NCBI RefSeq assembly: GCF_013403565.1
Contig: NZ_CP058627.1
Coordinates: forward strand, 1,426,001 to 1,490,000
Source of the DNA: Chitinibacter bivalviorum
GTDB lineage: Bacteria; Pseudomonadota; Gammaproteobacteria; Burkholderiales; Chitinibacteraceae
Direction of reading: 5' to 3'
DNA length: 64,000 nt
The position numbers and the translations under genes were made by a program. Of this stretch, positions 7,779-42,283 are shown one piece after another; the first letter of the stretch is position 1; every line of letters starts with the position of its first letter. The notes beneath the pieces were generated by a model, which saw only the letters and a program-made list of their open reading frames with translations, ran no database searches and was not told the origin of the DNA.

Positions 7779-7828
7779 AGGTATATCAATACAAGCCAAA
7801 CCCGGCATTATCTACAGACCTATACCCA
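7779..7828. repeat. 50-bp GGTATAT palindromic repeat, copy 1
   Basis: Starts AGGTATATC and ends CCTATACCCA; exactly 50 bp. It lies between two other palindromes in the gap upstream of the deaminase gene. Confidence 0.65.
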
Positions 7829-8125
7829 CATTAGCAGCAAGATGGTGGGTTACGTCCTTCGGCCTAACCCACCCTACGGCAGCGCCGCGATGATTGGGCT
7901 GGGGCTTTTATCCACGTGTAGCGAAAACCGCGGCGAGGAGAGAGACAAACAGTTTCACCGTTTGGCTCACGACGAAGCAAGGGCAGCGCGGAGCGCTTTT
8001 CGCCCGGGTCGCCTTTCTTTGCGTACTTACTTTGGCGAGGCAAAGAAAGTACGTCCCCCGCGGAAGGCGGCAACTCCAGTCAAGAGAACCGCTTCAAATT
8101 CAATTAGCCAATACTCTTCCATCTC

Positions 8126-8166
8126 GCGATATTTAAAATAACTGCCACAATCATTTTAAATATCGC
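8126..8166. repeat. Inverted repeat GCGATATTTAAAAT
   Basis: Perfect 14-bp arms (8126-8139 and 8153-8166). It shares the half CGATATTTAA with the palindrome at 7721, so the two bracket a segment of about 450 bp. Confidence 0.8.
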
Positions 8167-8186
8167 TACCGAATAGCGGCAGCGAT

Positions 8187-8236
8187 GGGTATCTCTTGCA
8201 AAAGCAATCAGCAGAACTAGGTCAAGCAAATACCTA
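8187..8236. repeat. 50-bp GGTATAT palindromic repeat, copy 2
   Basis: Starts GGGTATCTCT and ends CAAATACCTA; exactly 50 bp. Its right end is part of the nrdA terminator palindrome. Confidence 0.6.
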
Positions 8237-8252
8237 ATTAGGTATTTGCTTG
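8223..8252 (-). terminator. 30-bp perfect palindrome, probable nrdA terminator
   Basis: CAAGCAAATACCTAA is followed directly by its reverse complement. It begins 10 bp past the nrdA stop codon. T-tracts are weak, so it may act as a stem-loop end rather than a classical terminator. Confidence 0.5.
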
Positions 8253-8262
8253 AAGCCCATGA

Positions 8263-11157
8263 TTACTGGCACGCCTCGCAATCTGGATTATCAATCGAGC
8301 AGAACTTCGCATCCGTCGCTGGCGTGCTATCCACCGCCGCCGCAGCCGTAATCACGGCTTGCGCTTGCGCTGCTGCATAGCCACCATCCACTGGCACCGC
8401 GTTCAACTCGCCACCACGACCGGTTGATTTCTCAGCCGCCGTTGCTGCCAGCGTGCGCAGGTAGTAAGTGGTTTTCAGGCCGCGCAACCAAGCGTGTTTG
8501 TACAACTCGTCCAGTTTCTTACCTGAGGCACCGGCCATGTAGATATTGAGCGATTGCGCTTGGTCGATCCATTTTTGACGACGTGAAGCCGCTTCCACCA
8601 ACCATTTCGGATCCATCTCAAACGCAGTGGCGTACAGATCACGCAGGTCTTGCGGGATGCGATCGATTTGCGCCACTGAGCCGTCGAAGTATTTCAGATC
8701 CGACACCATGACTTCGTCCCACAGGCCGCGGGCTTTCAGGTCGCGCACCAAGTGCTCGTTGATCACGGTGAATTCACCTGACAAGTTCGATTTCACGAAC
8801 AAGTTTTGGTAAGTCGGCTCGATACACGCATCCACGCCGACGATGTTTGAAATCGTAGCGGTTGGCGCAATCGCCAAGCAATTTGAGTTGCGCATACCGT
8901 AGGCGGCGATGCGGTCACGCAGCATCGTCCAATCCAGACGCGAGCTGCGATCCACTTCCAGGTAGCCGCCGCGCTCTTCTTCAAGCAGACGCAGTGAGTC
9001 TTGCGGCAAGATGCCACGATCCCACAAGCTGCCTTTGTAGCTGGCGTAAATGCCGCGCTCTTGCGCCAATTCGGTTGAAGCCCAGTAAGCGTGGTAAGCC
9101 ACGGTTTCCATCGATACATCGGCAAATTCAACTGCGGCCTCTGATGCATATGGAATACGCAGCGCGTGCAAGCAGTCTTGGAAACCCATAATGCCCATAC
9201 CGACTGGACGGTGTTTCAAGTTTGACGTACGCGCTTTGCGCACTGGGTAGAAGTTAATGTCGATCACGTTGTCGAGCATACGCATCGCTACTTTCACGGT
9301 GCGCGATAGTTTCTCAGCATCGAGTTCACCATTTTTCAGGTGGTTGTACAGATTGATCGAGCCCAAATTACATACGGCGATTTCTTCGTCGTTGGTATTG
9401 AGCGTGATCTCGGTGCACAAATTCGATGAATGAACGACACCAACGTGTTGCTGTGGGCTGCGGATATTGCATGGGTCTTTGAAAGTGATCCATGGGTGGC
9501 CCGTTTCAAACAACATCGTCAGCATTTTGCGCCACAGGCTTAAAGCGGGGATGGTTTTCGCCACGCGCATTTCACCACGCGCCGCTTTGGCTTCGTAGTT
9601 GGTGTAGGCAGTTTCGAAGGCTTTCCCCACTTTATCGTGCAGATCTGGCACTTCGGATGGGCTGAACAATGTCCAGTTAGCACCTTCCATGACGCGTTTC
9701 ATAAACAGGTCAGGAATCCAGTTGGCCGAATTCATATCGTGCGTACGGCGACGGTCGTCACCGGTATTTTTACGCAACTCGAGGAATTCTTCGATGTCAG
9801 CGTGCCAAGTTTCCAGGTAAGCGCAGACTGCACCTTTGCGTTTACCACCTTGATTGACCGCCACGGCAGTGTCATTCACCACTTTCAGGAATGGCACTAC
9901 GCCTTGAGATTTGCCATTGGTACCCTTGATGTGGCTACCCATGGCGCGCACGGAAGTCCAGTCATTACCCAAACCACCAGCAAATTTCGACAACAATGCG
10001 TTTTCTTTGAGTGCTTCGAAAATACCATCCAAATCATCAGGTACAGTCGTCAGGTAGCAGCTCGACATCTGGCTGTGACGCGTGCCCGAGTTAAACAGCG
10101 TTGGCGTTGATGACATAAAGTCAAAGCTCGACAACACGTTGTAGAACTCGATCGCGCGGTCTTCGCGATTGGTTTCATTCAGCGCCAAGCCCATGGCCAC
10201 GCGCATAAAGAAGACCTGTGGCAACTCGATGCGGCGCTCGTTGATGTGCAGGAAGTAGCGGTCGTACAAAGTTTGCAGACCAAGGTAGCCAAACTGGTAA
10301 TCACGGTTGTGATCCAAGGCAGCAGCCAATTTCGCCAAATCAAACTGACCCAGCTTTTCATCGAGCAACTCGGCTTCGATGCCTTTTTTGATGTAACGCG
10401 GGAAATAGCTCGCGTACACCGTTGCCATGTCTTCGTGGCTGGTTTCTTCACCTAGCACTTCACGACGTACGGTATTGAGCAGCAAACGTGCAGTCACCAG
10501 ACCATAAGCAGGGTCGGTTTCGAGGAAGGTGCGTGCAGCCAAAATTGCTGATTTGCGAACTTCTTCTGCCGGAACACCGTCGTACAGATTTTTAAGTGTT
10601 TCAGCCAAAATCTGGTTTTGGTCGGTGTATTGCTCCAAGCCGCTACACGCCGAAGCGATCAGCGCTTTGAGTTTAGTCAGATCGAGCGGACGGCTGCTGC
10701 CATCTTCATACAACACATTAATTGCGTGCTGCTCAGCAGGCTCGGCTTCATGACGCGCAGCATCACGCTCACGTTGACGTTCGCTGCGATACAGTACATA
10801 GGCGCGCGCCACATCGTGCTCGCCCGAGCGCATCAGCGCCAATTCAACTTGGTCTTGGATGTCTTCAATGTGAATCGCACCGCCATCAGGCTTGCGGCGC
10901 ATCAGCGCATTCACGACTGAATCAGTCAAATGAGAAACTTGCTCACGCACAGCCGCGCTAGAAGCGGCGTGGCTACCCTGTACCGCGATAAATGCTTTAG
11001 TTACGGCAACAGAGATTTTTGATGGCTCAAAAGGAACAACCGAGCCATTACGGCGAATAATTTTGTAATTAGCGTAATGCGCAGCATCGTGTGATGGTGT
11101 CTGGATATCAGTACTATCAGTGCGGCTAGTTGGGCTACTGTCGAGCGTGGCGTACAT
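8263..11157 (-). CDS. nrdA: Ribonucleoside-diphosphate reductase alpha subunit (class Ia)
   Basis: Catalytic subunit that reduces NDPs using the NrdB radical. At 964 residues it is about 200 longer than the E. coli protein because of an N-terminal extension with two ATP-cone-like units (residues about 30-130 and 145-235), the allosteric activity sites. Active-site cysteine motifs are MSSCYL and SSNLCTEI. The C-terminal redox pair is in NPDCEACQ, reloaded by thioredoxin or glutaredoxin. NrdR-like boxes lie upstream at 11178-11224, and NrdR itself binds ATP/dATP through such a cone. The ATG at 11157 was taken because the conserved region begins soon after it. Confidence 0.96.
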   Translation of the reverse strand: MYATLDSSPTSRTDSTDIQTPSHDAAHYANYKIIRRNGSVVPFEPSKISVAVTKAFIAVQGSHAASSAAVREQVSHLTDSVVNALMRRKPDGGAIHIEDIQDQVELALMRSGEHDVARAYVLYRSERQRERDAARHEAEPAEQHAINVLYEDGSSRPLDLTKLKALIASACSGLEQYTDQNQILAETLKNLYDGVPAEEVRKSAILAARTFLETDPAYGLVTARLLLNTVRREVLGEETSHEDMATVYASYFPRYIKKGIEAELLDEKLGQFDLAKLAAALDHNRDYQFGYLGLQTLYDRYFLHINERRIELPQVFFMRVAMGLALNETNREDRAIEFYNVLSSFDFMSSTPTLFNSGTRHSQMSSCYLTTVPDDLDGIFEALKENALLSKFAGGLGNDWTSVRAMGSHIKGTNGKSQGVVPFLKVVNDTAVAVNQGGKRKGAVCAYLETWHADIEEFLELRKNTGDDRRRTHDMNSANWIPDLFMKRVMEGANWTLFSPSEVPDLHDKVGKAFETAYTNYEAKAARGEMRVAKTIPALSLWRKMLTMLFETGHPWITFKDPCNIRSPQQHVGVVHSSNLCTEITLNTNDEEIAVCNLGSINLYNHLKNGELDAEKLSRTVKVAMRMLDNVIDINFYPVRKARTSNLKHRPVGMGIMGFQDCLHALRIPYASEAAVEFADVSMETVAYHAYWASTELAQERGIYASYKGSLWDRGILPQDSLRLLEEERGGYLEVDRSSRLDWTMLRDRIAAYGMRNSNCLAIAPTATISNIVGVDACIEPTYQNLFVKSNLSGEFTVINEHLVRDLKARGLWDEVMVSDLKYFDGSVAQIDRIPQDLRDLYATAFEMDPKWLVEAASRRQKWIDQAQSLNIYMAGASGKKLDELYKHAWLRGLKTTYYLRTLAATAAEKSTGRGGELNAVPVDGGYAAAQAQAVITAAAAVDSTPATDAKFCSIDNPDCEACQ

Positions 11158-11177
11158 GCACGGTTCCTCAAAGCTTT

Positions 11178-11224
11178 GTGTATAAGTCTGTGTATAGTTT
11201 GTGAAGAAACACTACATCTTGTGT
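11178..11224 (-). promoter_or_regulatory. Two NrdR-type boxes upstream of nrdA
   Basis: ACACTACATCTTGTGT (11209-11224) matches the NrdR consensus ACACwATATATwGTGT at 14 of 16 positions. A second 16-mer exactly 31 bp away (11178-11193) keeps only the GTGT half. Paired boxes at about three helical turns are typical of NrdR-repressed nrd promoters. Confidence 0.7.
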
Positions 11225-11316
11225 TCAGGTCACAGTGGTGACACAAATACTAGGGGAAAGTGGGGGGCTGGTGCAACTAGCACAGGCTGTGCTAGCAGAT
11301 GAATGGTGAGGTAAAA

Positions 11317-11351
11317 AGCACAAACCCAAGCCAGGCTTGGGTTTGTGTGCT
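11317..11351 (-). other. Long hairpin between slyD and nrdA
   Basis: CAAACCCAAG and CTTGGGTTTG arms around CCAGG, extended outward by AGCA/TGCT-type pairing. The 354-bp gap between nrdA and slyD (11158-11511) holds this hairpin, the NrdR boxes and the slyD terminator, and no gene I can support. Confidence 0.5.
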
Positions 11352-11442
11352 GTTGGACCATTAAACTTACATGACAGCGGGTTGCAAGATTGCAACATGC
11401 AGCACATACCAAGCAAGTGATGTAACTTTCTGCTCGACAAAC

Positions 11443-11467
11443 AAAAAGGCGGCCAAGCCGCCTTTTT
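11443..11467 (-). terminator. slyD terminator
   Basis: AAAAAGGCGGC, CAA loop, GCCGCCTTTTT: an almost symmetric bidirectional terminator 45 bp past the slyD stop. Confidence 0.85.
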
Positions 11468-11511
11468 CATTACTCATTCAAAGACCGCATCTTAAAGCAG
11501 TCTATTTCATC

Positions 11512-11991
11512 TTAGTGGTGATGGCCGTGCTCGCCGTGAACGTGGCCATGAGCCAACTCTTCGGCAGTTGCTTCGCGAACGTTCGTTACTTTAGCGGCAA
11601 AACGAATTGTCATGCCAGCAAATGGGTGATTGCCATCTACTGTCACTTTATTGCCTTCAACTTCAGTCACGCGGAACAAGATTACTTCGCCTGTTTCAGG
11701 ATCATCAGCTTCAAACATCATGCCCACTGCAACTTCAGGCGGGAAACCGTCTTTGTCTTCGTCACGAACCAATTCTGGCTCGAATTCGCCAAATGCGTCA
11801 TCTGGTGACATCGTCACTTCCACCGCATCACCCACTGACTTGCCATGCAACGCTTCTTCAACCAGCGGCAGGATATTGTCATAACCGCCATGCAGGTAAG
11901 CAATCGGTTCTTCGGTTTTGTCGATTTGATTGCCTTCGGCGTCGTACATTTCATAAGTGAGTGTAACAACGGAATTTTTGGCGATTTGCAT
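11512..11991 (-). CDS. slyD: FKBP-type peptidyl-prolyl isomerase SlyD
   Basis: Cytosolic prolyl isomerase and metallochaperone of 159 residues. The FKBP/insert-in-flap order of SlyD is visible: an N-terminal strand VTLTYEMYDAEG, the YLHGGYDNILP motif, an acidic flap, and the core motif VDGNHPFAGM near residue 120. The tail is His-rich (HGHVHGEHGHHH), the nickel/zinc-binding end that supplies hydrogenase and urease maturation in other species. It lies 5 bp after the peroxiredoxin-like gene, so the two are probably one operon. A strong terminator follows. Confidence 0.93.
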   Translation of the reverse strand: MQIAKNSVVTLTYEMYDAEGNQIDKTEEPIAYLHGGYDNILPLVEEALHGKSVGDAVEVTMSPDDAFGEFEPELVRDEDKDGFPPEVAVGMMFEADDPETGEVILFRVTEVEGNKVTVDGNHPFAGMTIRFAAKVTNVREATAEELAHGHVHGEHGHHH

Positions 11992-11996
11992 AGTGT

Positions 11997-12464: not shown

Positions 12465-12615
12465 GGGGTCTCCAGTCGGTGCAATAATACGATTATTAGC
12501 TGACGCTAGCTTTGCCATTCAGACGCGGGAATCCACTTATATATAGAGCGCCCCAAATCCATTGGCTACACCTTGCGCCTTTCTTATTTTATTTATTTCT
12601 TTATAGCCACAAGCC

Positions 12616-13761
12616 ATGCCTAAAACACCTTTCGATGTTGCACTGTTGGGTAATTTAACGCCCGAACAATTTTTGGCCGACTATTGGCAAAAAAAACCAC
12701 TGCTCATTCGCCAAGCCTGGACTCATTTTCCAGAGCTGATCGATTTTGCGCGCTTATCTGAGTTTGCCCAGCGTGACGATGTCGAATCACGACTGATTGA
12801 GTTTCAGCATGGTCGCTGGAAGCTCGAAAACGGCCCATTTAGCCAACATCGTCTTAATCGCTTACCAGAAACGGATTGGACAATCCTGGTACAAAACGTC
12901 AATCATCTGGTGCCGCATATTGCGGACTTCTTATATCAATTTAATTTCCTGCCTTATACCCGCTTGGACGACGTCATGATTTCGTATGCGCCGCCCGGTG
13001 GTACGGTTGGCCCTCACTATGACTCCTACGATGTCTTTTTGTTGCAAGTGGGCGGACAAAAACGCTGGCAAATTTCCAGCGACGATGCGTCCGGCTTTAT
13101 TGAAGATGCCCCTATCCGCGTACTGAAAGATTTCAACCCTGAGCAAGAGTGGATCTTAGAGCACGGCGATATGCTGTATCTGCCACCGAAATACGCCCAT
13201 TACGGCGTAGCCCTTACCCCCGGGATGACGTACTCAGTTGGGTTCCGCGCCCCCAAAACACAAGAGGTCGCGACCAAATTTCTAGAGTTTTTGCAAGATG
13301 AAATCTGTCTTGAAGGCATGTACAGCGATCCTGACGCAAAAGCCACTGCGAGCCCAGCAAGAATCGACGAAGCCTTTGTCAGTCAAATCAGCAAAATGCT
13401 GCAGCAAGTCAAATGGAATGACGACATCGTGCGTCAATTTATTGGCCGCTATTTCTCCGAGCCCAAGCCTCACGTCTTTTTCGACCAAACTGAAGCGCCT
13501 CTGGAGTTTGATGACTTTGCCCAAGCCCTTGCGACACATGGCATTGTGCTTAATCTCAAAAGCCAGATGCTCTATAGCGATCAGCAGTTATATATCAATG
13601 GCGAAGAAGTTGAGTTTGAAGATGCAAGCGCTGAAGATATCGCCGCCCTGCAGCTATTAGCGAATGAACGCACCTTAGCTGCAGGGGAATACTCCGATGA
13701 ACTCGTCGATTTACTCTATAGCTATCATGAATATGGATACCTCCAACCCATTACCCGATAA
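12616..13761 (+). CDS. roxA: 50S ribosomal protein L16 arginine hydroxylase (JmjC/cupin)
   Basis: Fe(II)/2-oxoglutarate oxygenase of the YcfD/RoxA family that hydroxylates an arginine of ribosomal protein L16. It has 381 residues, close to E. coli YcfD. The iron triad is visible: the HxD of GPHYDSYDVF (about residues 133-141) and the distal histidine in YLPPKYAHYG near 197. The N-terminal motif ADYWQKKPLLIRQA is typical of the family. The C-terminal winged-helix-like half ends in YSYHEYGYLQPI. Its 3' end overlaps the next gene, so the two are translationally linked. Confidence 0.92.
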   Translation: MPKTPFDVALLGNLTPEQFLADYWQKKPLLIRQAWTHFPELIDFARLSEFAQRDDVESRLIEFQHGRWKLENGPFSQHRLNRLPETDWTILVQNVNHLVPHIADFLYQFNFLPYTRLDDVMISYAPPGGTVGPHYDSYDVFLLQVGGQKRWQISSDDASGFIEDAPIRVLKDFNPEQEWILEHGDMLYLPPKYAHYGVALTPGMTYSVGFRAPKTQEVATKFLEFLQDEICLEGMYSDPDAKATASPARIDEAFVSQISKMLQQVKWNDDIVRQFIGRYFSEPKPHVFFDQTEAPLEFDDFAQALATHGIVLNLKSQMLYSDQQLYINGEEVEFEDASAEDIAALQLLANERTLAAGEYSDELVDLLYSYHEYGYLQPITR

Positions 13762-14233
13762 GCTTGCCCAGCCTTTTGATACCCGAGCAGGGTATCAGGC
13801 TGCGTTCAGCGCCATCATTAGTCAAGCTGGCCATACACTATTGATGTGTGAAAAGGATTTTGCCGAGATCGATTTGGGTTGCAAACGCAATTTTGACCTG
13901 CTGTGGGCGTTTTTCTCGCAACCCTCGCCAGGACGATTGCAACTCTTAATGCAAGACAGCGATTATCTCGGTCGACACTGCCCTCGCTTTATGCAGCTTT
14001 ATGATCGCTTTACCCATTTAATCGAACTACGGGTAATTCCTGAACATTTACGCCAATGGCAAAAAGGCTGGGTCGTGAGCGATCACAAGAGCTATTTAAT
14101 TCGTCACCATTACGACTGGTATCGCGGCGAATTAGCGAATGATCCGCAAATCGTTGCGCTGCTACGACAACAATTTGCCACACTTTGGGAACAATCCACT
14201 TCAAGTAATGCACTGCAACGCCTTGATTTATAA
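13727..14233 (+). CDS. Conserved hypothetical protein (DUF7931-like), overlaps roxA
   Basis: A cytoplasmic protein of about 168 residues if it starts at the ATG 13727 (a second ATG is at 13733). A start at 13697 would deepen the overlap with roxA. Visible features are a TLLMCEKDFAEIDLG strand, LLMQDSDYLGRHCPRF, and the C-terminal VSDHKSYLIRHHYDWYRG. It resembles the region that follows an acetyltransferase domain in some betaproteobacterial proteins (from memory, not searched). The overlap with roxA suggests co-expression. Function unknown. Confidence 0.7.
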   Translation: MNMDTSNPLPDKLAQPFDTRAGYQAAFSAIISQAGHTLLMCEKDFAEIDLGCKRNFDLLWAFFSQPSPGRLQLLMQDSDYLGRHCPRFMQLYDRFTHLIELRVIPEHLRQWQKGWVVSDHKSYLIRHHYDWYRGELANDPQIVALLRQQFATLWEQSTSSNALQRLDL

Positions 14234-14742: not shown

Positions 14743-16071
14743 ATGTCCATTCAAATCCTCCTCCCCCGCTGGATCATCCCAATTATTCCTCGCCACACCG
14801 TGTATAGCGACTATGCTCTGGTCATGAATGGCGAGCGCATTATTGCGCTTCAAGCCAAAGATGAGGCACTCGCAGCCTATCCACAAGCGACGATCACCGA
14901 GCTACCCGAGCATGCACTCTTGCCCGGGCTCGTCAATCTACACGCACATTCAGCCATGACCTTATTGCGCGGATTTGCTGATGACCTGCCGCTGATGCGT
15001 TGGCTCAATGAACACATCTGGCCAGCCGAAGGGATGCATGTGAGCGATGAATTTGTCTTCGATGGCTCCCAACTTGCCATCGCAGAAATGATTGCCGGCG
15101 GCACCACCAGCTGCAATGACATGTATTTTCATCACAGCGCAGTTGCACGCGCAGCGCTTGATGCAGGTTTTCGAATGACAATCGGCTGCTCGATTCTCGA
15201 GTTTCCAACTGCATTTGCCAGTAATGCCGACGATTACATCGGCAAAGCCCTGAAAAGTCGTGATGAATTTCTCGGCGAAACGCTTGTTAATTTTACCCTC
15301 GCACCACACGCGCCCTACACTGTCAGCGATACGACTTTTGGCCGCATCATTACGCTGGCCGATCAACTCAATCTCAGCATCCACTGCCACATTCACGAAA
15401 CAACGGACGAAATCGCAGGCAGCCTCAAAGAATATGGAGTCCGCCCCTTAGAGCGCCTCGCCCAGTTGGGACTGCTTGATAGCCCGCTGATCGCAGCGCA
15501 TATGGTGCACACCACCGACACTGAGATCGCCCTACTCACCCAAAAAGGCGTGCACATTGCGCACAATCCGGCCAGCAACCTCAAGCTCGCCTCAGGCTTT
15601 GCCCGCATTCACGATCAACTGGGCGCAGGCATCAACGTTGGTATCGGCACCGATGGTGCCGCCAGCAATAATAAGCTCGATATGTTCGCCGAAATGCGCC
15701 TCGCCGCCCTGCTCGCCAAAGGCCAGAGCGGCAACCCAGAAGCGATTCCTGCGTGGCAAGCATTGGAAATGGCCACGCTCAATGGCGCCATTGCATTAGG
15801 CCAGCTGGGACAAATTGGCAGCCTCGAAGTTGGCAAACAAGCCGACCTGATCGCAGTGAACCTTGCCGCATGCGGCACGCAACCATGTTACGATCCAGTA
15901 TCGCATTTAGTTTATGCCGCAGACCGTAATCAGGTCAGCGACGTCTGGATTGCCGGTCGCGCCGTCTATCGTCAGCAGCAACACCAAACACTGAAGCTAG
16001 GCGAGATTGAATCCAAAACTCGTTACTGGCAACACAAAATCAAAGCAGGTATATCCTCAAAAGCCTTATAA
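14743..16071 (+). CDS. mtaD: 5-methylthioadenosine/S-adenosylhomocysteine deaminase (TRZ/ATZ family)
   Basis: A metal-dependent amidohydrolase of 442 residues. The metal-binding motifs are GLVNLHAHSAMTLLRG (near residue 60-75), a middle HCHIHET and HNPASNLKLASG, and the aspartate in GIGTDGAASNN. These fit MtaD, which deaminates methylthioadenosine and S-adenosylhomocysteine; guanine-deaminase-like relatives are possible. The ATG at 14743 was chosen because an earlier start lies in the preceding terminator. It leads the mtaD-ubiG-gph row seen in related Neisseriales. Its last codons and stop lie inside a copy of the 50-bp repeat. Confidence 0.85.
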   Translation: MSIQILLPRWIIPIIPRHTVYSDYALVMNGERIIALQAKDEALAAYPQATITELPEHALLPGLVNLHAHSAMTLLRGFADDLPLMRWLNEHIWPAEGMHVSDEFVFDGSQLAIAEMIAGGTTSCNDMYFHHSAVARAALDAGFRMTIGCSILEFPTAFASNADDYIGKALKSRDEFLGETLVNFTLAPHAPYTVSDTTFGRIITLADQLNLSIHCHIHETTDEIAGSLKEYGVRPLERLAQLGLLDSPLIAAHMVHTTDTEIALLTQKGVHIAHNPASNLKLASGFARIHDQLGAGINVGIGTDGAASNNKLDMFAEMRLAALLAKGQSGNPEAIPAWQALEMATLNGAIALGQLGQIGSLEVGKQADLIAVNLAACGTQPCYDPVSHLVYAADRNQVSDVWIAGRAVYRQQQHQTLKLGEIESKTRYWQHKIKAGISSKAL

Positions 16072-16096
16072 GGATTAATGTTGTGACCAATACCCA
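16047..16096. repeat. 50-bp GGTATAT palindromic repeat, copy 3, across mtaD/ubiG
   Basis: Starts AGGTATATCC and ends CCAATACCCA; exactly 50 bp. It contains the last codons and stop of mtaD (TAA 16069-16071), the AAGGA before ubiG, and the ubiG GTG start. Confidence 0.65.
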
Positions 16097-17502: not shown

Positions 17503-17864
17503 GGGGGTGCCATGGTTTCGACAGGGGTTGCAAAGCGGATGAGGGCATGTCGGGGTCTCAGCTGCCCGTAAAAACAACTGAAAACATATAGTCGCAAACG
17601 ACGAAACTTACGCTCTAGCTGCTTAAGCTAGACTCTGCACCGCAAGGCCCATCGGGCGGGTCGGGTAAAACCGGCAGCAGAGTCATTTAGATGGGATCGC
17701 TTTAAGTCGGGTTACTTGGCTTAGGGTTAAACTAAGGTGACTCGCTCTCTTCAAGCCTGCCCATCGGCGTGATTGAGAGTTAAAACCCAAATGATACGGC
17801 TAAACATGTAGAACTCACTGTAGAGTGCTTCTGGACGGGGGTTCAACTCCCCCCACCTCCACCA
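17503..17864 (+). ncRNA. ssrA: Transfer-messenger RNA (tmRNA)
   Basis: Rescues stalled ribosomes by trans-translation with SmpB. The 5' end GGGGGTGCC pairs with CACCTCC before the 3' ACCA (one G-U), giving the tRNA-like acceptor stem. The T arm is GGACGGGGGTTCAACTCCCC. The resume codon GCA is at 17594 and the tag ANDETYALAA ends at TAA 17624-17626. This tag suggests Neisseriales. The 3' end is the probable attachment site of the adjacent integrase region. Confidence 0.97.
17842..17864 (+). other. Probable attL: 3' end of ssrA
   Basis: The ssrA 3' end is a common target of tyrosine integrases, and an integrase gene starts 176 bp further on in the same direction. A second copy of this end was not found in the window. 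Confidence 0.45.
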
Positions 17865-18039: not shown

Positions 18040-19308
18040 ATGTCACTCAACACTGGGGCAGATAATGAAAAACCGAGGAACCTGTTAACCGTTCTTGCCA
18101 TTAAAAATGCAAAGGTTCCAGAGGGTAAAACTGAAACAACACTTTATGATGGAGATAGGCTCTACTTACTCATTACATCCACGCGCCAGCGTTGGTACTT
18201 CCGTTTTGGATTACAGGGAAAAATGTACAAACAATGGCTTGGTGAATACCCAAAAATTAACCTAAAAAAGGCTCGCGAACTACGCAATGCTTCTGCGGCC
18301 ATGGTACTCGAGGGCAAAGATCCCCGAGTCGTCAAGCAGATCAGCAAGGCCAATGCAAAAGTCAGTACTGACGATACATTTGAAGCAATTAGCCATGAGT
18401 GGTTTGCGCGTGCAATGGCGCAAAAATCTAAAAGCCACAGAGACAGAACAATAAATCGCTTGGAAAGCGATATTTTTCCATGGCTAGGCAAGCGCAAAAT
18501 TTCAACCATTGAGGCACCAGAATTACTTATTTGTCTGCGTCGTATCGAAGAACGTGGCGCTATTGAAACGGCTCACCGTGTTAGATGGTCATGCGGCAAA
18601 GTTTTTGCGTATGCCATTGCAACAGGCCGTGCAGTTAACAATCCTGCCGATACCTTAGCAAAAGCAGACGTATTGAAGTCCCCTACTTCTATTCCTTTCC
18701 CTACTATCACTGATCCAGTAAAAATCGGCGCTTTATTGCGTGCGATTGATAGCTTAGAGGCAGGCATAACCGTCAAATGCGCCACACAACTTGCGCCACT
18801 CGTATTTACTAGAATTGGTGAATTGAGAAAAGCGGAATGGACAGAAATTGATTTTGATCGCCAGCAGTGGCGTATTCCTGCAGAAAAAATGAAGAGCCGC
18901 GCGCCTCATATCGTTCCGCTGTCTAAACAAGCAATTGAAATACTCAAGACAATCCATCCTGTAAGCGGACACAGCCAATACGTATTTGAAGGAGGCCGCA
19001 GCAATGGCCGCCCAATGAGTGAAGCAGCTATAAATATTGCATTACGGCGTCTTGGCTACACCCAAGAAGAATTTACGGGACATAGTTTCCGCAAAATTGC
19101 CTCCACTCAACTGCATGAATCTCACTTATGGCACCACGACGCAATAGAACGTCAATTAGCACATGGTGAAAAAGACAGTGTTTCTGCAACATATAATCAT
19201 GCTCAACACCTACCAGAACGGACCACGATGATGCAATGGTGGGCAGACTATCTTGATAAACTTAAAGCTGGTGGCGATGTAATAAACTTCCCTGCAAGAG
19301 CAGTCTAA
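18040..19308 (+). CDS. Tyrosine-type site-specific integrase (P4-like)
   Basis: Integrase of 422 residues. The N-terminal arm-binding domain (TLYDGDRLYLLITSTRQRWYF) is of the DUF4102 type, the middle SAM-like core-binding domain follows at about 110-200, and the catalytic domain comes after. Catalytic residues are visible: Arg in FTRIGELRKAEW, the GHSFRKIAST box, and a C-terminal ATYNHAQHL bearing the tyrosine. It is next to the ssrA 3' end in the same orientation, as in many genomic islands. The start at 18040 is the first ATG of the frame. No excisionase is adjacent; an AlpA-type regulator lies 2.6 kb downstream. Confidence 0.93.
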   Translation: MSLNTGADNEKPRNLLTVLAIKNAKVPEGKTETTLYDGDRLYLLITSTRQRWYFRFGLQGKMYKQWLGEYPKINLKKARELRNASAAMVLEGKDPRVVKQISKANAKVSTDDTFEAISHEWFARAMAQKSKSHRDRTINRLESDIFPWLGKRKISTIEAPELLICLRRIEERGAIETAHRVRWSCGKVFAYAIATGRAVNNPADTLAKADVLKSPTSIPFPTITDPVKIGALLRAIDSLEAGITVKCATQLAPLVFTRIGELRKAEWTEIDFDRQQWRIPAEKMKSRAPHIVPLSKQAIEILKTIHPVSGHSQYVFEGGRSNGRPMSEAAINIALRRLGYTQEEFTGHSFRKIASTQLHESHLWHHDAIERQLAHGEKDSVSATYNHAQHLPERTTMMQWWADYLDKLKAGGDVINFPARAV

Positions 19309-35555: not shown

Positions 35556-35605
35556 GGGTATATGTCTGAAATCTATTTAATTAATGATCTTCAGCCATAT
35601 ACCTT
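35556..35605. repeat. 50-bp GGTATAT palindromic repeat, copy 4
   Basis: Starts GGGTATATGTCTGAA and ends TTCAGCCATATACCTT; exactly 50 bp. It lies between nirK (stop 35611) and the cytochrome gene. Confidence 0.7.
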
Positions 35606-36759: not shown

Positions 36760-36798
36760 TTACCGCTCCTACAACATCCACGCTCCAGCCCAATAAAA

Positions 36799-36825: not shown

Positions 36826-36859
36826 GAAATCATTGATGTTTTTTTACGTCAACAGCGCT

Positions 36860-37189: not shown

Positions 37190-37208
37190 CTTAAATTCCT
37201 TTGTTAAC

Positions 37209-37258
37209 AGGTATATGGCCAGGCACTATATTTTGCATAGCGTCTGACCACATACCTA
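37209..37258. repeat. 50-bp GGTATAT palindromic repeat, copy 5
   Basis: Starts AGGTATATGGCC and ends CCACATACCTA; exactly 50 bp. It lies between norB (stop 37268) and the DUF2249 gene. Confidence 0.7.
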
Positions 37259-37267
37259 ATACACACA

Positions 37268-39544
37268 TCAAGCTTTATTTTTTGCCAATTGGCCATCAAG
37301 CACTGGCACGGTTTTAGCTTTACCAAGCAGGCGCAGCGCAAACACTGCCAGATACAACACACCCGCCGCAAACACGATGTCACCCGGAACGCGCAGCCAC
37401 ACCAGCGTTTCCATCACGGATGAGTGAATGATTTCAGCCGAGCGTGCATACCACAGACCATGCTCAACACTCGCCGCAGCCTGGTAAATACCAGCAGGCA
37501 GCAAGGACATGAACACCATCATGAAGAGACCAATATTCATGCTCCAGAATGCCGGTTTCAGCAGGCCATCATTCCATTTCGCTGCAGGTGCAAGACCACG
37601 CAGGCAGAACAGCATCAGACCAATCCCCAGCATGCCGTACACCCCGAACAGCGCAGCGTGACCATGCGCAGCGGTCATATTCAGACCTTGCACGTAGTAC
37701 AGCGCAATCGGTGGATTAATTGCAAAACCGAGCAGACCAGCACCGACGGTGTTCCAGAAACCTACCGCGACAAAGCACATAATCGACCAGCGATATTTTG
37801 CAACCCACGGTGCAGCTTGTGTGTGGCGATAAGTGTGATACGCCTCAGCAGCAATCAGCGCCAGCGGCACGACTTCGAGTGCCGAGAACATCGCGCCAAC
37901 GGCAATGACCGAAGTCGGTGAACCGGTGAAATACAGGTGATGCAAAGTACCCAGAATGCCGCCGAACAAAAAGACGATGGTTTCCAGCACAATCGCACGA
38001 TTCGCAGAAGCAGTCCGGATCAGACCCAGACGGCTGAGCAGCAAGGCGATCACTGCGGTGGCGAATACTTCAAAGAAGCCTTCCACCCACAGGTGAACCA
38101 ACCACCAACGCCAGTATTCGATCATCGCGTAGTGGGTTTTTTGGCCCCAAACCAGCGACGAGGCGTAGAACAGACCAATACAGACCGCAGAAATAAACAC
38201 CATCGCGATCAGGCCCTGGCTCTCGGACGGTTTACGCAGCGCAGGCCACAGACCACGGCCGAGCAAGGTTGCCCAGATCAGCAGGCCAATAAACAGTAGA
38301 ATCTGCCACACGCGACCCATACTGGTGTATTCCAGCCCCTGATTACCGAGCCAGAAGCTGTAATTGGTCCCCAGGCGTTGCATCGTGCCGATCCAACCCG
38401 TAGCAATCGAGCCAACGACAATCAGGAGCAAGGCATAAAACAGCGCATCGGTGCCCAGCTTTTGAAACTTCGGCTCTTTACCACCGAGCACCGGCGAGAG
38501 GAACAGACCCGTCGCCAACCATGCTGTTGCAATCCACAGCACGCCCAACTGAGTATGAATCGTGCGGCTAACGGTAAATGGCAAGGCTTCAGCCAGCGGA
38601 ATCCCAAAGAAACTGCCGCCTTCCACCTGATAATGCGCCGAGATAATCCCCATGCCGACTTGTGCCAGCAGCAAGCCGATTACGACATAGAAATACTTGA
38701 ACGTGGCCTTCATCGATGGCGTCAATTGCAGCGCAATCAACGGGTCTTTATCCGGGCAAACGGCAGGCTCTTCTTCCCGCTGCATATTGTGAAACAGCAC
38801 CATCGCCGCAATGCCGCCGATCAGCAAAATAATGCTGGCGATCGACCACAAGCTCGTTCCCGTCGTTGGCGTATTTTCAATCAAGGGTTCGTGCGGCCAG
38901 TTGCTGGTGTACGACAGATGATGCTCACCCGGACGATTGGTGCCCGCTGCCCACGCTGACCAGAAGAAGAACGCTGGCAGCGCTTTCAAATCGTCAGCAT
39001 CTTTGATTGAGCCAGAGATCATTGCATACTGGGTACGCAATTTATCCTGCGCCGGATCGGTGCCAAACAGGCTTTCATAATGCTGCGCGACTTGTTGCAT
39101 CGCCAGCGCGCGATCAGCCTGAATCGTCACCGTATCTTTGGCGGCGTCGTAGGTGTTGGTACGCATTACCGACACCACGCGCACATCGATCGGCGCCTGC
39201 TCTTCCCGATTCAGTTGTTCATAATTTTTATGATATTGCTGTTGCGCCCAGATATTACGTAGCGCGAGTACTTCGCGATGCAGCCAGTCGGCTGACCAAT
39301 CCGGCGCCACATAGCTGCCATGCCCCCAGACTGAACCCATTTGCTGGCCGCCTGCAGACAGCCAGGCTTCCTGACCGCGCTGAATTTGCTCGGCGGTATA
39401 CAGCACTTTGCCATTGCTGTTGACGATTTGCTGCGGAATCGGTGGTTTGTCGAGATAGATTTCCCTGCCTATCCAGCCTAAGGCGGCAAAAGACAGGAAA
39501 AACACAATCGCAAGCCAGCGCCAAAGCGTGCGCGTTTTTTGCAT
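37268..39544 (-). CDS. norB: Quinol-dependent nitric oxide reductase (qNOR)
   Basis: Integral-membrane enzyme of 758 residues that reduces two NO to N2O with electrons from quinol. The N-terminal span and periplasmic extension replace NorC, giving the single-subunit qNOR/NorZ type of Neisseria. Haem and FeB ligand motifs are visible: RTIHTQLGVLWIA, HLWVEGFFEVFATA (His and Glu), HHLYFTGSP and AAHGHAALFGVYG. GGAGA precedes the ATG. It is flanked by an NsrR-like site upstream and by DUF2249 and nirK genes downstream. It detoxifies NO made by NirK. Confidence 0.96.
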   Translation of the reverse strand: MQKTRTLWRWLAIVFFLSFAALGWIGREIYLDKPPIPQQIVNSNGKVLYTAEQIQRGQEAWLSAGGQQMGSVWGHGSYVAPDWSADWLHREVLALRNIWAQQQYHKNYEQLNREEQAPIDVRVVSVMRTNTYDAAKDTVTIQADRALAMQQVAQHYESLFGTDPAQDKLRTQYAMISGSIKDADDLKALPAFFFWSAWAAGTNRPGEHHLSYTSNWPHEPLIENTPTTGTSLWSIASIILLIGGIAAMVLFHNMQREEEPAVCPDKDPLIALQLTPSMKATFKYFYVVIGLLLAQVGMGIISAHYQVEGGSFFGIPLAEALPFTVSRTIHTQLGVLWIATAWLATGLFLSPVLGGKEPKFQKLGTDALFYALLLIVVGSIATGWIGTMQRLGTNYSFWLGNQGLEYTSMGRVWQILLFIGLLIWATLLGRGLWPALRKPSESQGLIAMVFISAVCIGLFYASSLVWGQKTHYAMIEYWRWWLVHLWVEGFFEVFATAVIALLLSRLGLIRTASANRAIVLETIVFLFGGILGTLHHLYFTGSPTSVIAVGAMFSALEVVPLALIAAEAYHTYRHTQAAPWVAKYRWSIMCFVAVGFWNTVGAGLLGFAINPPIALYYVQGLNMTAAHGHAALFGVYGMLGIGLMLFCLRGLAPAAKWNDGLLKPAFWSMNIGLFMMVFMSLLPAGIYQAAASVEHGLWYARSAEIIHSSVMETLVWLRVPGDIVFAAGVLYLAVFALRLLGKAKTVPVLDGQLAKNKA

Positions 39545-39624
39545 GATAGTTCTCCGTTGAGGGTGAAATGGGATGTCAAGTCCAATAAGTTACATATTAC
39601 ATGCAACTTTTATGAATATGCAAA

Positions 39625-39642
39625 TTATATACATATTAAAGG
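39625..39642 (-). promoter_or_regulatory. NsrR-like site upstream of norB
   Basis: TTATATACATATTAAAGG, part of a wider AATATG...CATATT palindrome (39615-39637). It shares the core of the nirK sites. Confidence 0.5.
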
Positions 39643-39707
39643 CTAATTATTGCGCACAACATCGGTAACGGAGTTCATAGGCCAAGGAAAATATGATCAA
39701 AAAAAGT

Positions 39708-39757
39708 AGGTATATCTCTAAAGCTATTTTAAATAGGAATCTATAGAGACATACCTA
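39708..39757. repeat. 50-bp GGTATAT palindromic repeat, copy 6
   Basis: Starts AGGTATATCTCTA and ends TAGAGACATACCTA; exactly 50 bp and the most symmetric copy. It is 24 bp past the nsrR stop. Confidence 0.75.
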
Positions 39758-39780
39758 ATGGTGTATTTTGGAGAAGAATG

Positions 39781-40239
39781 TCAGGGACGAAAACCCGTAG
39801 GGTGAAGTTCGATGGCAAAGACCGCCCCCAACTCGACCGGATTACTGATCAGATCAGCCAGCGTGTAACGATCGAGCACAGCATATAGCGCCTGCAGCGC
39901 TTCATTTAGGATGAATTTGAGTCGACAGACGCTGGCGATATTGCAGCTATTGTTTTCACGGTCAAAACACTCGACCATTGGGCTGTCTTCTTCGCTCAGT
40001 CGTACCAAAGCACCAATATTGATCGCCGATGGTGGGCGCGATAAGAGCATGCCACCACCCTTACCACGCATCGTGTCGATAAAGCCTTGTCGCGACAGAA
40101 AATTAACGACCTTCATCAAATGATTATCCGAAATGCCGTACGCTTGGGCGATTTCGCTGCGCGTCACCACTCCGCCATCTTTCATTGCCACATAAATCAG
40201 TGTACGCAAACAGTAATCGGTAAAGACATTCAGGCGCAT
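39781..40239 (-). CDS. nsrR: Rrf2-family nitric-oxide-sensing repressor NsrR
   Basis: A 152-residue winged-helix repressor holding an Fe-S cluster that NO destroys. Start MRLNVFTDYCLRTLIYVAM is typical. The recognition region is RSEIAQAYGISDNHLMKVVNFLSRQG. The cluster cysteines are in CFDRENNSCNIASVCRL (three Cys). It is upstream of norB on the same strand with 236 bp between, and near the TAATA-type sites, so it is the probable local regulator, also of itself. Confidence 0.93.
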   Translation of the reverse strand: MRLNVFTDYCLRTLIYVAMKDGGVVTRSEIAQAYGISDNHLMKVVNFLSRQGFIDTMRGKGGGMLLSRPPSAINIGALVRLSEEDSPMVECFDRENNSCNIASVCRLKFILNEALQALYAVLDRYTLADLISNPVELGAVFAIELHPTGFRP

Positions 40240-40270
40240 ATACTGGTATCCTTTTCATAACACGCATTTT

Positions 40271-40282
40271 TAATACATATTA
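40271..40282 (-). promoter_or_regulatory. NsrR-like site upstream of nsrR
   Basis: TAATACATATTA palindrome about 30 bp before the nsrR ATG, suggesting autoregulation. Confidence 0.45.
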
Positions 40283-40417
40283 CCTCAGAATGGGTAGTGT
40301 GCAATGGGAGTTTGTACTGATGTTGCCTCTACCTCTAAAGAAAATGCCTGACTGATATCAAATCAGCATAACGAAAAGCTGCATAGGCTGTTGGAATTAT
40401 CTAAAGGAGTACCAGCG

Positions 40418-40831
40418 ATGAGCATCACCACCGCATTACAACAACAGCATCGCCAGTGCGATGAATTTCTGGCGCAAGCTGAAAGTGCGGCCCGTGCTGC
40501 ACAATGGGGTGATTGTGTGACAGCGACGCAAGTGTTTTGCCAAATGACCGAGGCGCATTTTGCGCTGGAGGAAGAATCGCTGTTTCCTGCTTTCGAGCAG
40601 GCCACCGGCATGAGTGGTGGGCCAACGCAGGTGATGCGCGGCGAACATGCGCAGGCCCGCGATCTGATGCAGGGCTTGCAAGATGCGGCGCAAAACTGGG
40701 ATGCCGATGATTTCATCGGCTGCGCCGAAACCTTGTTGATTCTGCTCCAACAACACAATATGAAAGAGGAAAATATCCTCTATCCGATGTGTGATCGCAG
40801 CATCCCCGAATTTGCCGAGCGGATTGCGTAA
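40418..40831 (+). CDS. Hemerythrin-like protein
   Basis: A 137-residue four-helix protein (ATG 40418, AAAGGAG upstream; the frame opens at 40391). Candidate di-iron ligands are in QQQHRQCDEF, AHFALEEE, GEHAQARD and QQHNMKEENILYP. Hemerythrin-like proteins in denitrifiers bind NO or repair Fe-S centres, as in the YtfE/DnrN group. It is divergent from nsrR and followed by a DUF2249 gene (3 bp gap) and a membrane protein gene, which form one operon. Confidence 0.87.
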   Translation: MSITTALQQQHRQCDEFLAQAESAARAAQWGDCVTATQVFCQMTEAHFALEEESLFPAFEQATGMSGGPTQVMRGEHAQARDLMQGLQDAAQNWDADDFIGCAETLLILLQQHNMKEENILYPMCDRSIPEFAERIA

Positions 40832-40834
40832 GCC

Positions 40835-41053
40835 ATGGCCAATCTCAAGCTGGACTTACGCGGCCTTGCGCCACCCGAACCGATAGAGCGGATTTTGCAT
40901 TGGCTCGACGCAGCCATCGCGGGCGAAACCCTCCTTGCGCATCTGCCCCACACCCCTTACCCGCTGTACGATCATTTACGCATGCGTCCCTGCCACTGGG
41001 ACTGTGCTGCGCATGCCGATGGTTCGGCGATACTGACCCTGCATCGAGACTGA
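40835..41053 (+). CDS. Small DUF2249 protein
   Basis: A 72-residue protein with a DUF2249-like core: LDLRGLAPPEPIERILHWLD, then HTPYPLYDHL and the C-terminal strand GSAILTLHRD. No Cys-rich tail, unlike its two paralogues in the cluster. It starts 3 bp after the hemerythrin-like gene and ends 3 bp before the next ATG, so the three genes are one operon. Confidence 0.82.
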   Translation: MANLKLDLRGLAPPEPIERILHWLDAAIAGETLLAHLPHTPYPLYDHLRMRPCHWDCAAHADGSAILTLHRD

Positions 41054-41056
41054 ACG

Positions 41057-42283
41057 ATGTTCCAGCCTGAATTTAGCTTGCCCGTCGCACTACCGCTGCG
41101 TTTTTTTCGTACCGCGCCAATCTGGCTGGCGCTGGTGGCACTACTGGCTTTCGGTCTGGATGAGAGCGACTGGCAGCAGCGGTTTTCACCCGCCATGTTG
41201 GCATTAACCCACCTGCTGATGCTGGGCTTTGTGGGCAATATCATGATCGGCGCGCTACTACAGGTCAGCGCCGTGCTGGCCGGGGTAAAGGCGACAAATC
41301 CGGTTTTCTGGGGGCAGTTATTGTGGCTAGCCTTGCAAGGTGGAGCCGCACTGCTAGCAGCCGGTTTGTGGCATATGCAGCCGATCTGGCTACAGGCCGC
41401 GGCAGTGATCTTATTCACCAGCCTGGGTGGCTTGGCGCTGTGGCTGCTGATCGCGCTATGGCGCAGTGGCGTTGCGACACCCTTGCGCTGGGCGATTGTG
41501 GGTTTGGGCTTGACCGCACTCAGCGGCGTACTGTTAGTTAGCTTGCTCAGTACGGGCTGGCCCGCTATCGCGCTCAATGATTTGTTGCGCGCGCATATAG
41601 CGTTAGGCAGCATCGCCTGGGTTGTCGGGCTGATTATCGCTGTCGCCTTTACCGTCGTACCGATGTTTCTGGTCGCGCCAGCGTGGCCAAGTCGTTTAAA
41701 TTGCTATTTATCGCTGGCCTTGCTGGCGACAGTATTGGCGGCTGCGCTTGATGCCCGCTTGCTGATGCTACTGGCACTTCCCGTACTAAGTTGGTTGCTG
41801 GCGCTACTGAAACTGCTTCGACACAGCCAGCGCCGCGCCGATCCTGCGCGCTATTTATGGGGCTGGGGCGGTTTCAACCTATTACTAGTGACGGTACTAA
41901 TCCCATGGATGGATCAATGGTCCTCGCTCTTGAGCACGCCATCACAAGCGCCCATTATGCTCGCTGCTTATTTTCTGTTCGCGGGCGTCCTCCCGATTAT
42001 CACCGCCATGCTGGCCAAAATTATACCCTTTCTGCTCTGGATGGATTTCAGACTGAAAATCAAAAGCGGTGGTGGCTTGCGGCATATGGGGCAACTCTTT
42101 CCCGAACGCTGGCTAAAAAAGCTGGCCTATCTATGCTTCAGCATGGGTATATCTTTCTTCCCTTTGTATTTATTAGCCTTTAAGTCAATACCTATCATTT
42201 TAATAATTTATGCAGTTGCCTTAAGCTATTGCATAGAATCAGCCTTGAGCATTCAGAATAAAGCTAAGATCCTTCAGTCTTAG
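41057..42283 (+). CDS. Polytopic membrane protein, haem-copper oxidase/NnrS-like
   Basis: A 408-residue protein with about eleven or twelve hydrophobic spans. Histidines in predicted spans (LTHLLMLGFVGN, LLRAHIALGSIAWV) resemble haem-ligand positions of haem-copper oxidase subunit I or NnrS-type proteins, which occur in NO-response loci. This is a resemblance, not an assignment. It is in the operon with the hemerythrin-like and DUF2249 genes. The last part of the coding region (42145-42194) is a copy of the 50-bp repeat, so about 16 residues of its C-terminal end come from a repeat. Confidence 0.75.
   Translation: MFQPEFSLPVALPLRFFRTAPIWLALVALLAFGLDESDWQQRFSPAMLALTHLLMLGFVGNIMIGALLQVSAVLAGVKATNPVFWGQLLWLALQGGAALLAAGLWHMQPIWLQAAAVILFTSLGGLALWLLIALWRSGVATPLRWAIVGLGLTALSGVLLVSLLSTGWPAIALNDLLRAHIALGSIAWVVGLIIAVAFTVVPMFLVAPAWPSRLNCYLSLALLATVLAAALDARLLMLLALPVLSWLLALLKLLRHSQRRADPARYLWGWGGFNLLLVTVLIPWMDQWSSLLSTPSQAPIMLAAYFLFAGVLPIITAMLAKIIPFLLWMDFRLKIKSGGGLRHMGQLFPERWLKKLAYLCFSMGISFFPLYLLAFKSIPIILIIYAVALSYCIESALSIQNKAKILQS
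42145..42194. repeat. 50-bp GGTATAT palindromic repeat, copy 7, inside a gene
   Basis: Starts GGGTATATCTTT and ends GTCAATACCTA; exactly 50 bp, within the 3' end of the NnrS-like gene. The weakest symmetry of the seven. Confidence 0.5.

Follow-up and report, generated by a model that had tools for sequence, protein, structure and literature searches.

Among the systems closest to the sites described here, the Haemophilus USS has a strong core accompanied by weaker positions at helical intervals. Chi-type sites are short and polar and are not dyadic. The matS, parS, Noc and SlmA sites are palindromic, recognised by a dimeric protein and distributed over the chromosome; they are contiguous palindromes of less than about 20 bp, occur in tens of copies and are often confined to a domain. 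Integron attC sites have conserved inverted ends and a variable palindromic middle, vary in length, carry other end motifs and stand in cassette arrays, and REP/BIME, Correia and similar short palindromic repeats lie near gene 3' ends, mostly between genes, and share sequence over their whole length. To our knowledge, no chromosome-organising site has boxes four helical turns apart or a copy number as high as that reported below. For the DUS, published features include an over-representation that falls steeply from zero to one mismatch (PMC1939737) and a low copy number in DNA acquired horizontally (PMC2397512); in Simonsiella and Kingella, uptake sequences paired as dyads (simDUS and kingDUS) suggest recognition by a dimer (PMC3630211).

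In a 64-kb stretch of Chitinibacter bivalviorum DNA (the window), as in the rest of the genome, sites are found that consist of two inverted GTAT boxes 41 bp apart, or about four helical turns (Table 1). These sites are like the neisserial DUS in numbering hundreds of copies or more, in being restricted to a clade and in lying both within and between genes; both also show a steep fall from perfect to single-mismatch copies (PMC1939737), and the dyad arrangement is shared with simDUS and kingDUS (PMC3630211). However, DUS are contiguous 10-12-mers, whereas each Chitinibacter site has two boxes of 4-5 bp at a distance of exactly 41 bp, a freely varying interior and, optionally, a third box. Over-represented perfect copies and inverted pairs at gene ends are features common to the Haemophilus USS (PMC1939737, PMC5217627) and the Chitinibacter sites, but the USS has one asymmetric 9-bp core and the sites are a strict dyad of two equal cores. 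Unlike attC, they are fixed in length and scattered, and their genic copies lack pairing beyond that given by composition. Unlike REP/BIME and Correia elements, they have in common no more than boxes and spacing, and half of them are genic. In the literature searched, no description of the paired GTAT sites was found.

The invariant core is GTAT-N37-ATAC, usually in the form GGTAT...ATACC, with an outermost G/C that tolerates change. An earlier note on the window had listed seven segments, and their coordinates, ends and length are all as it gave them; with sites 3 and 5, the core occurs nine times in the window. Site 5, which has the outer C at one side only, lies in the interval of 17.9-32.4 kb that had been described as empty. 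The emptiness reported for 43-64 kb is borne out, as the shorter core also has zero matches from 42.2 to 64 kb, a result with a chance of about 0.9% at mean genome density. The RGGTATATCTCT-like start proposed as a consensus does not hold, since strong conservation there is confined to GTAT and its outer G. A central palindrome, said to be kept in several copies, is good in three of the nine window sites, with 10-11 of 16 inner pairs, and the remaining six are poor palindromes, with 1-4 of 16.

Table 1. Paired GTAT sites and third boxes in the 64-kb window (positions are those of the window).
Feature	Position	Strand	Core	Location and remarks
Site 1	7779..7827	.	GTAT 7781-7784 and ATAC 7822-7825	Intergenic
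Site 2	8187..8235	.	8189-8233	Intergenic, 3' of nrdA
Third GTAT box of site 2	8242..8245	+		8 bases beyond site end
Third box of site 3	13779..13782	-		ATAC on the + strand; 9 bases beyond site end
Site 3	13790..13838	.	13792-13836	Within ORF 13697-14233 (+); missed in the earlier note
Site 4	16047..16095	.	16049-16093	Spans end of TRZ/ATZ-type hydrolase ORF (mtaD of the earlier note) to start of ubiG ORF
Site 5	18607..18655	.	18609-18653	Within ORF 18040-19308 (+); missed in the earlier note
Site 6	35556..35604	.	35558-35602	Junction of nirK and cytochrome c gene
Site 7	37209..37257	.	37211-37255	Junction of 758-aa ORF 37268-39544 and DUF2249 gene
Site 8	39708..39756	.	39710-39754	Close to Rrf2/NsrR-type regulator gene
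Third GTAT box of site 8	39763..39766	+		8 bases beyond site end
Site 9	42145..42193	.	42147-42191	Within ORF 41057-42283 (+)

The geometry of the sites is strict. Within the window, spacing 42 accounts for 7 occurrences of GGTAT...ATACC, and the other 295 spacings in the range 5 to 300 yield 10 in all. In two 400-kb regions, spacing 42 gave 38 and 44 matches, the neighbouring spacings 41 (2 and 1) and 43 (1 and 3) gave few, and the remaining spacings averaged 0.43 and 0.49, upholding the constancy of the 50-bp length genome-wide. In the genome of 3,677,798 bp, 788 copies have an outer G/C on one side or both; GGTAT...ATACC accounts for 448 matches and the reversed control pattern for 4, a number of copies far above chance. 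A sample of 1.6 Mb contained 365 sites, where about 13 would be expected from other spacings. In a count by mismatch, 180 copies had the exact GGTAT...ATACC form (about 2 expected). Among 233 single-mismatch copies, 164 differ solely at the tolerant outer base and 69 are altered in the eight core bases, compared with about 33 expected by chance. Over-representation drops steeply from perfect to single-mismatch copies, and the core is nearly all-or-none. Apart from a weak dyad consensus the interior varies freely. The description of a constant length with a variable middle stands.

A third GTAT is found exactly 8 or 9 bases beyond one end in 164 of 450 sampled sites, with 71 cases at offset 8, 94 at offset 9 and 0-9 at each other offset from 0 to 39. 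Of the 144 one-sided cases in regions A-D, 95 have the third box pointing along the GC-skew strand and 49 against it; as G over C composition can account for this bias, no polarity is claimed for the third box. The paired-box site escaped scans for contiguous 8-mers and 10-mers in this DNA, and regions A-F held no contiguous 10-mer repeat comparable with the Neisseria uptake sequence. In the single 16.4-kb Neisseria locus used as a positive control for the 10-mer scan, the DUS was recovered 28 times, against a density of about 0.2 per kb for the Chitinibacter sites.

Sites are present in all 15 searched genomes from three genera of one family, with at least 259 in each. Counts are near background in the 28 other genomes searched within that family and in 273 from elsewhere in the class, the latter with 0-12 matches. 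In a few genomes without sites, matches outnumber those of the reversed control (G305, 12 vs 0; G016, 12 vs 1 with the relaxed pattern). When tetranucleotide dyads were scanned de novo at spacings 5-119, GTAT-41 ranked first in four site-bearing samples of 60-200 kb. Another dyad dialect was sought in 60-80 kb from each of the sister genera g2, g3, g4, g6, g7 and g8 and was rejected, their best scores being far weaker; some of their best dyads are terminator-like pairs of A-tracts 23-27 apart. The scan covered neither g5 nor g9, the latter represented by a 1.5-kb contig only. In a tree of NrdA, the smallest group with all site-bearing genomes also includes genus g9, with support of 0.29; given this low support and the inclusion of g9, one origin of the sites and more than one are both possible. 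The consensus-extended pattern was matched in 72 viral contigs at a single place in each (raw count), and these viral loci carry 79 relaxed-pattern sites in 595.8 kb, with three sites at three of the loci.

The positions of the sites are orthologous between species and genera. In the window, the core of site 6 is intact at the equivalent junction in four of five relatives and broken in G003, that of site 7 is intact in all five, and the ortholog of site 8 is intact in G005 and decayed in G003. Across 48 directed ortholog comparisons, both boxes are intact in 39, including g1-g11 and g1-g10 (a gene pair was counted both ways if both members carry the site, and one further comparison was unalignable). 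Each of the nine failures differs at two or more core bases, and eight control spacings gave 0 of 9 in the same test. By nucleotide alignment, 26 of 31 sites are kept, in comparison to 13 of 53 for control spacings. At third codon positions, identity is 87.7% in the genic core and 50.9% in the flanks, with intergeneric comparisons included. The genic boxes are maintained at the DNA level, and sampled sites are kept base by base across three genera. The idea that sites occupy permissive protein positions was also considered, with no clear effect: protein identity is 69.6% at sites against 74.3%, and is lower in 14 of 30 gene pairs.

With genes called by a codon-usage ORF heuristic rather than from an annotation, 184 of the 365 sampled sites lie wholly within genes, with boxes in all three frames. 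Of 142 intergenic sites, 41 are convergent and 11 divergent; together with the genic half of the sites, this led to rejection of a promoter operator. Intergenic copies often lie directly behind stop codons, and of 175 flanking 3' ends, at least 80 are no more than 14 nt away. The mean distance from site to site is 4-5 kb, and close neighbours are rare (7 of 340 intervals shorter than 500 bp, about 35 expected). Two small GC-rich contigs, C2 and C3, carry 1 site in 73.6 kb, where about 16 would be expected at the genome mean; C2, the one inspected, has plasmid-like ORFs. Contig C4, which partly duplicates chromosomal sequence, has 4 sites.

The best reading of these sites is that they are the recognition site of a putative multimeric DNA-binding protein. 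This reader is predicted with high confidence to be multimeric and to require that the two boxes share a face of the helix. A role as self tag in the uptake of DNA during natural transformation is proposed for the sites with moderate confidence. Site-bearing fragments would be preferentially taken up and recombined, and molecular drive would thereby regenerate the boxes in long-resident DNA, with new arrivals lacking sites. In that case the sites would correspond to the neisserial uptake sequence, in a dyadic form with two boxes. Taken jointly, a paired-box address, a multimeric reader and an uptake self tag kept by molecular drive form the best explanation on offer, one that we put forward tentatively. 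Speaking for it are the enrichment and sharpness of the sites, their fixed geometry and third box, their maintenance at the DNA level, the traits in common with uptake sequences, the rarity of close neighbours and the low count in C2 and C3. ComEC is found in 25 of 25 family genomes, as is ComEA (24 above the cut-off), but site-free sister genera possess these competence genes to the same extent, and the genes are permissive evidence only. Surveys of candidate readers (ComEA and ComEC in 41 genomes each; the GspH-type pilin in 37, where g10 and g11 are represented by a single genome apiece) found no protein whose distribution separates site-bearing from site-free genera. Counting against the uptake reading are the geometry, with boxes 41 bp apart unlike contiguous uptake sequences of 9-12 bases, the low density, and proteins that show no clear increase in permissiveness at the sites.

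The main rival to the uptake tag is a chromosome-organising site, read by a clade-specific nucleoid or condensin-loading protein of which a tetramer would bridge the boxes, with the third box as a cooperative contact and the spaced sites shaping the chromosome. This is a possibility of some weight, although we think it rather improbable. The strict four-turn geometry, the sharp offset of the third box, the rarity of close neighbours and the lack of a promoter preference are all in its favour, and the scarcity of sites in C2 and C3 and at the window end is equally expected under an architectural role. However, organism-level selection on architecture alone would hardly yield strong conservation of mutually redundant sites, and no candidate protein was found. 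Alternatively, the sites could be a self marker for an enzyme of DNA repair, recombination or defence, similar to Chi/RecBCD but dyadic, with site-free DNA treated as foreign. The near all-or-none core, the mean spacing of 4-5 kb, the site-poor C2 and C3 contigs and the agreement of the third box with the GC-skew strand are consistent with such a marker, which is nonetheless unlikely, as the skew bias may reflect composition, the viral contigs match the consensus-extended pattern and there is no candidate enzyme.

Two further explanations carry little probability. The intergenic copies could act in RNA as hairpins, whether as terminators, mRNA 3'-end stabilisers or intercistronic processing sites, as their location close behind stop codons and covariation beyond the consensus suggest (969 inner pairs vs 851 in column shuffles, z 5.8). 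This covariation is absent in genic copies (z -0.7), whose boxes fall in all three frames; no T tract follows the 89 co-directional intergenic sites (T 0.22-0.28 across 25 bases downstream), the sense-strand excess of G-U over A-C is weak (z 1.5 and -0.5), and the window sites have no Rfam match at the gathering score. An RNA hairpin is thus very unlikely to explain the sites, and hairpins at 3'-end copies are probably secondary. The earlier note had proposed a small mobile or structural element, and the structural part of that proposal stands. A non-autonomous mobile element of MITE or REP type, inserted many times and then decayed, would account for inverted ends, constant length and copies in the hundreds. 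However, half of the sites are genic, where an insert of 45-50 bp would usually break the frame, and their positions are orthologous across genera. Copies with a single core mismatch are few, and strong conservation is limited to the boxes rather than extending along the whole length. Empty sites, which the note had suggested comparing in relatives, gave no clean difference of about 50 bp at the six one-sided junctions of this small sample (-40, -15, 0, 28, 30 and 60 bp). The mobile reading is extremely improbable.

Whichever protein reads them, it is nearly an even call whether the sites represent a categorically new chromosome-wide grammar, in which two or three GTAT boxes at four-turn spacing, with almost no demand on interior sequence, would form nearly 800 conserved addresses for a putative multimeric reader confined to a few genera of one family. 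The finding means that, within coding sequence, constraint at the DNA level can act strongly on two four-letter words placed 41 bp apart. If the sites are a chromosome-organising or repair address, they would form an unusually dense sequence-specific network of that kind, and the strict geometry would offer a direct handle for isolating the reader protein. If they are an uptake tag, they would represent a second, architecturally different route to self-recognition in transformation, close to the Neisseriaceae, and the lack of sites in sister genera would open the origin of uptake specificity to testing.

All seven 50-bp segments described in the earlier note are present in the window, and they belong to a family of paired boxes that recurs throughout the genome. 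Within the window, GGTAT and ATACC stand at a spacing of 42 seven times, while the remaining 295 spacings together account for ten occurrences. The complete genome of Chitinibacter bivalviorum (3,677,798 bp, four contigs) holds 448 copies of GGTAT-N37-ATACC, which is its own reverse complement and thus gives equal counts on both strands, in comparison to four copies of the reversed pattern. The concern that random sequence of this composition could yield as many hits is therefore set aside. The length is also kept: the 400-kb region surrounding the window (region A) has 38 copies at spacing 42 and a 400-kb stretch from a congener (region B) has 44, versus two and one at spacing 41 and one and three at spacing 43, the remaining spacings averaging 0.43 and 0.49.

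Across the four regions from this genus (A–D), exact GGTAT...ATACC occurs 180 times, with about two copies expected. Permitting one mismatch across the ten end bases adds 233 copies, of which 164 are changed only in the outermost G or C; the other 69 are changed within the eight GTAT/ATAC bases, against a chance expectation of about 33. The true core of the sites is GTAT-N37-ATAC, which brings the window to nine sites. Genome-wide, 788 copies bear at least one outer G or C (601 + 635 - 448). In the sampled set bearing both, the position two bases outward is G in 72%. Between the boxes there is no more than a weak dyad consensus, with A12/T32 the most conserved pair (71%) and W17, T9, T18 and C15 next.

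Coordinates of features in the window and on a viral-collection contig, with core and third-box counts for the sampled regions
Feature	Position or sample	Observation
50-bp segments	starts 7779, 8187, 16047, 35556, 37209, 39708, 42145	confirmed
Additional core site	13792-13836	found with relaxed core
Additional core site	18609-18653	found with relaxed core
tmRNA gene	17503-17864	tag ANDETYALAA; directly before the 17.9-32.4 kb stretch called empty in the earlier note
3638-aa ORF	47832-58748	inside the site-free part
IMGVR_UViG_2931094325 (L289)	1235, 6215, 10784 of contig	three sites; 14.8 kb, 50% GC
Region A	own genome, 400 kb	81 core copies (other spacings, mean 3.6); third box 30/81
Region B	G005, 400 kb	102 (3.9); third box 36/102
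Region C	G003	83 (2.6); third box 33/83
Region D	G000, 1-400 kb	99 (3.3); third box 46/99
Region E	G015, genus g11, 200 kb	third box 5/49
Region F	G014, genus g10, 200 kb	third box 14/36

In addition to the two boxes, 164 of the 450 sites in regions A–F carry a third, outward-pointing GTAT past the ATAC end, at an offset of 8 (71 cases) or 9 (94 cases), with zero to nine cases at every other offset from 0 to 39. The third box is rare in g11; its offset is only 9 there (five ends) and only 8 in g10 (14 ends), and both offsets occur in the genus of C. bivalviorum. By summed counts, 100 of 274 ends without the outer C have a third box, versus 65 of 626 ends with that C, as if the two were mutually replaceable. 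In 95 of 144 one-sided cases in regions A–D, the third box is oriented with the GC-skew strand, a bias that composition may explain, with replication polarity as a possible alternative.

Among the genomes searched, the sites are confined to three genera of one family, probably the Chitinibacteraceae. GGTAT-N37-ATACC has 376–542 copies in all six genomes of the genus, 276 and 298 in the two of g10, where the boxes are retained despite a sample GC content of 61.5%, and 259–453 in all five of g11, in comparison to 0–8 in 24 other genomes of the family and 24 from other families of the order. With one outer base relaxed, all 15 genomes of the three genera have 388–736 copies each; the other 28 genomes among the family's 43 have 2–21, a few exceeding the reversed control, and the count is 0–12 in 273 additional genomes of the class. 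A de novo scan for tetranucleotide dyads ranks GTAT at 41 top in four site-bearing samples, and nothing approaching it emerged in six other genera. The full pattern was likewise absent from 80 loci of UbiG relatives; within the named collection, the best of these were a Janthinobacterium-labelled MAG, followed by Andreprevotia and Amantichitinum. In an NrdA tree, the genus groups with g11, and g10 lies near g9, a weak placement (group support 0.29). The viral-collection contig in the table may be host DNA or a provirus long resident in the site-bearing genera.

A simple codon-usage ORF heuristic places 184 of the 365 sites in A–D entirely within genes and 145 between genes, with 36 partial; from a single chance spacing, about 17 genic and eight intergenic sites would be expected. 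The genic share is 24/49 in E and 9/36 in F. Genic sites use all three reading frames (90, 66 and 28) and spread over the full gene length. Intergenic sites in A–D favor gene ends, with 41 of 142 in convergent gaps versus 11 in divergent gaps, although the two gap types are equally common, at 164 each; of 175 flanking 3' ends, at least 80 lie within 14 nt of a site. Only seven of 340 inter-site intervals are below 500 bp, versus about 35 expected.

The distribution within the genome is uneven. The emptiness of the 3' part of the window was borne out, as 42.2–64 kb holds no site (probability about 0.009 at mean density). Contigs C2 and C3 (64% and 59% GC) have one site in 73.6 kb, where about 16 are expected at the genome mean, and C2 has plasmid-like ORFs. 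Within the first 20 kb of C2 (43 kb), relaxase-type and resolvase-type ORFs repeat about 13.5 kb apart, alongside efflux-type and repressor-type ORFs, which suggests that C2 is a small mobilisable plasmid whose sequence was assembled in tandem. Four sites lie on contig C4, and two of these match window sites 7781 and 8189 exactly; these two lie in reverse at the start of C4 with a partial nrdA (window 7.7–8.5 kb), a copy reflecting duplication or assembly redundancy.

Between species and genera, the boxes persist while the surrounding sequence changes. Among six genomes compared at the nir locus (three of the genus, including C. bivalviorum, and three of g11), the core at the junction of a 758-aa ORF and a DUF2249 gene is intact in all six, with exactly 37 bases between boxes, a mostly rewritten interior and one outer base gone in the three g11 copies; 3' of nirK, it is intact in five and broken in G003. 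Aligned genic orthologs keep both boxes in 26 of 31 cases versus 13 of 53 at control spacings, with flanks 77.3% and 80.4% identical, respectively. In codon alignments, which include comparisons with g11 and g10, both boxes are kept in 39 of 48 directed comparisons, one further being unalignable, versus 0 of 9 at eight control spacings; each of the nine failures has at least two core bases changed. As third-codon-position identity is 87.7% in core bases (n=122) versus 50.9% in flanks (n=2540), and the boxes are so often kept, the constraint acts on DNA rather than protein.

A mobile element, which the constant length and variable middle had first suggested, and an RNA element are together very improbable. 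Conserved gene junctions (129 comparisons) have a site on both sides in 11 and on one side in six, the latter differing in length by -40, -15, 0, 28, 30 and 60 bp, so that this small sample contains no precise 50-bp empty site. Intergenic sites do pair beyond column composition (969 inner pairs versus 851, z 5.8), whereas genic sites do not (886 versus 902, z -0.7). Since, moreover, the 89 co-directional intergenic sites have no T tract and favor sense-strand G-U over A-C only weakly (z 1.5 and -0.5), a hairpin is dispensable for whatever retains the boxes. The intergenic palindromes may stem from quasipalindrome correction or secondary use.

Given inverted boxes four helical turns apart, the third box at 8 or 9, weak dyad contacts and the use of all frames, the sites are very probably read by a multimeric protein on duplex DNA; searches found no such protein. 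The reading we tentatively place first is that they are DNA-uptake tags, in which case biased uptake would let molecular drive keep nearly 800 redundant sites without a fitness effect at each. According to excerpts of the sources, uptake sequences are marked by a steep drop from perfect to mismatched copies (PMC1939737) and scarcity in acquired DNA (PMC2397512), and those of Simonsiella and Kingella are dyad-paired, suggestive of a dimeric receptor (PMC3630211). The sites share the steep fall and the genic and 3'-end placement; their scarcity in acquired DNA is suggestive only, and regions A–F contain no comparable contiguous 10-mer. These shared marks fit chromosome-organising sites as well, a possible though somewhat doubtful account, and also a self marker for repair or defence, which is unlikely. 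Because the marks fit these rivals, no reader was found, and competence genes, present in the family genomes searched, do not separate site-bearing from site-free genera, the uptake reading stays short of an even chance. Literature searches returned no description of such paired-box sites. If they are uptake tags, they would take a two-box, dyadic form rather than that of a single contiguous word; otherwise, they would represent a new kind of chromosome-wide site.
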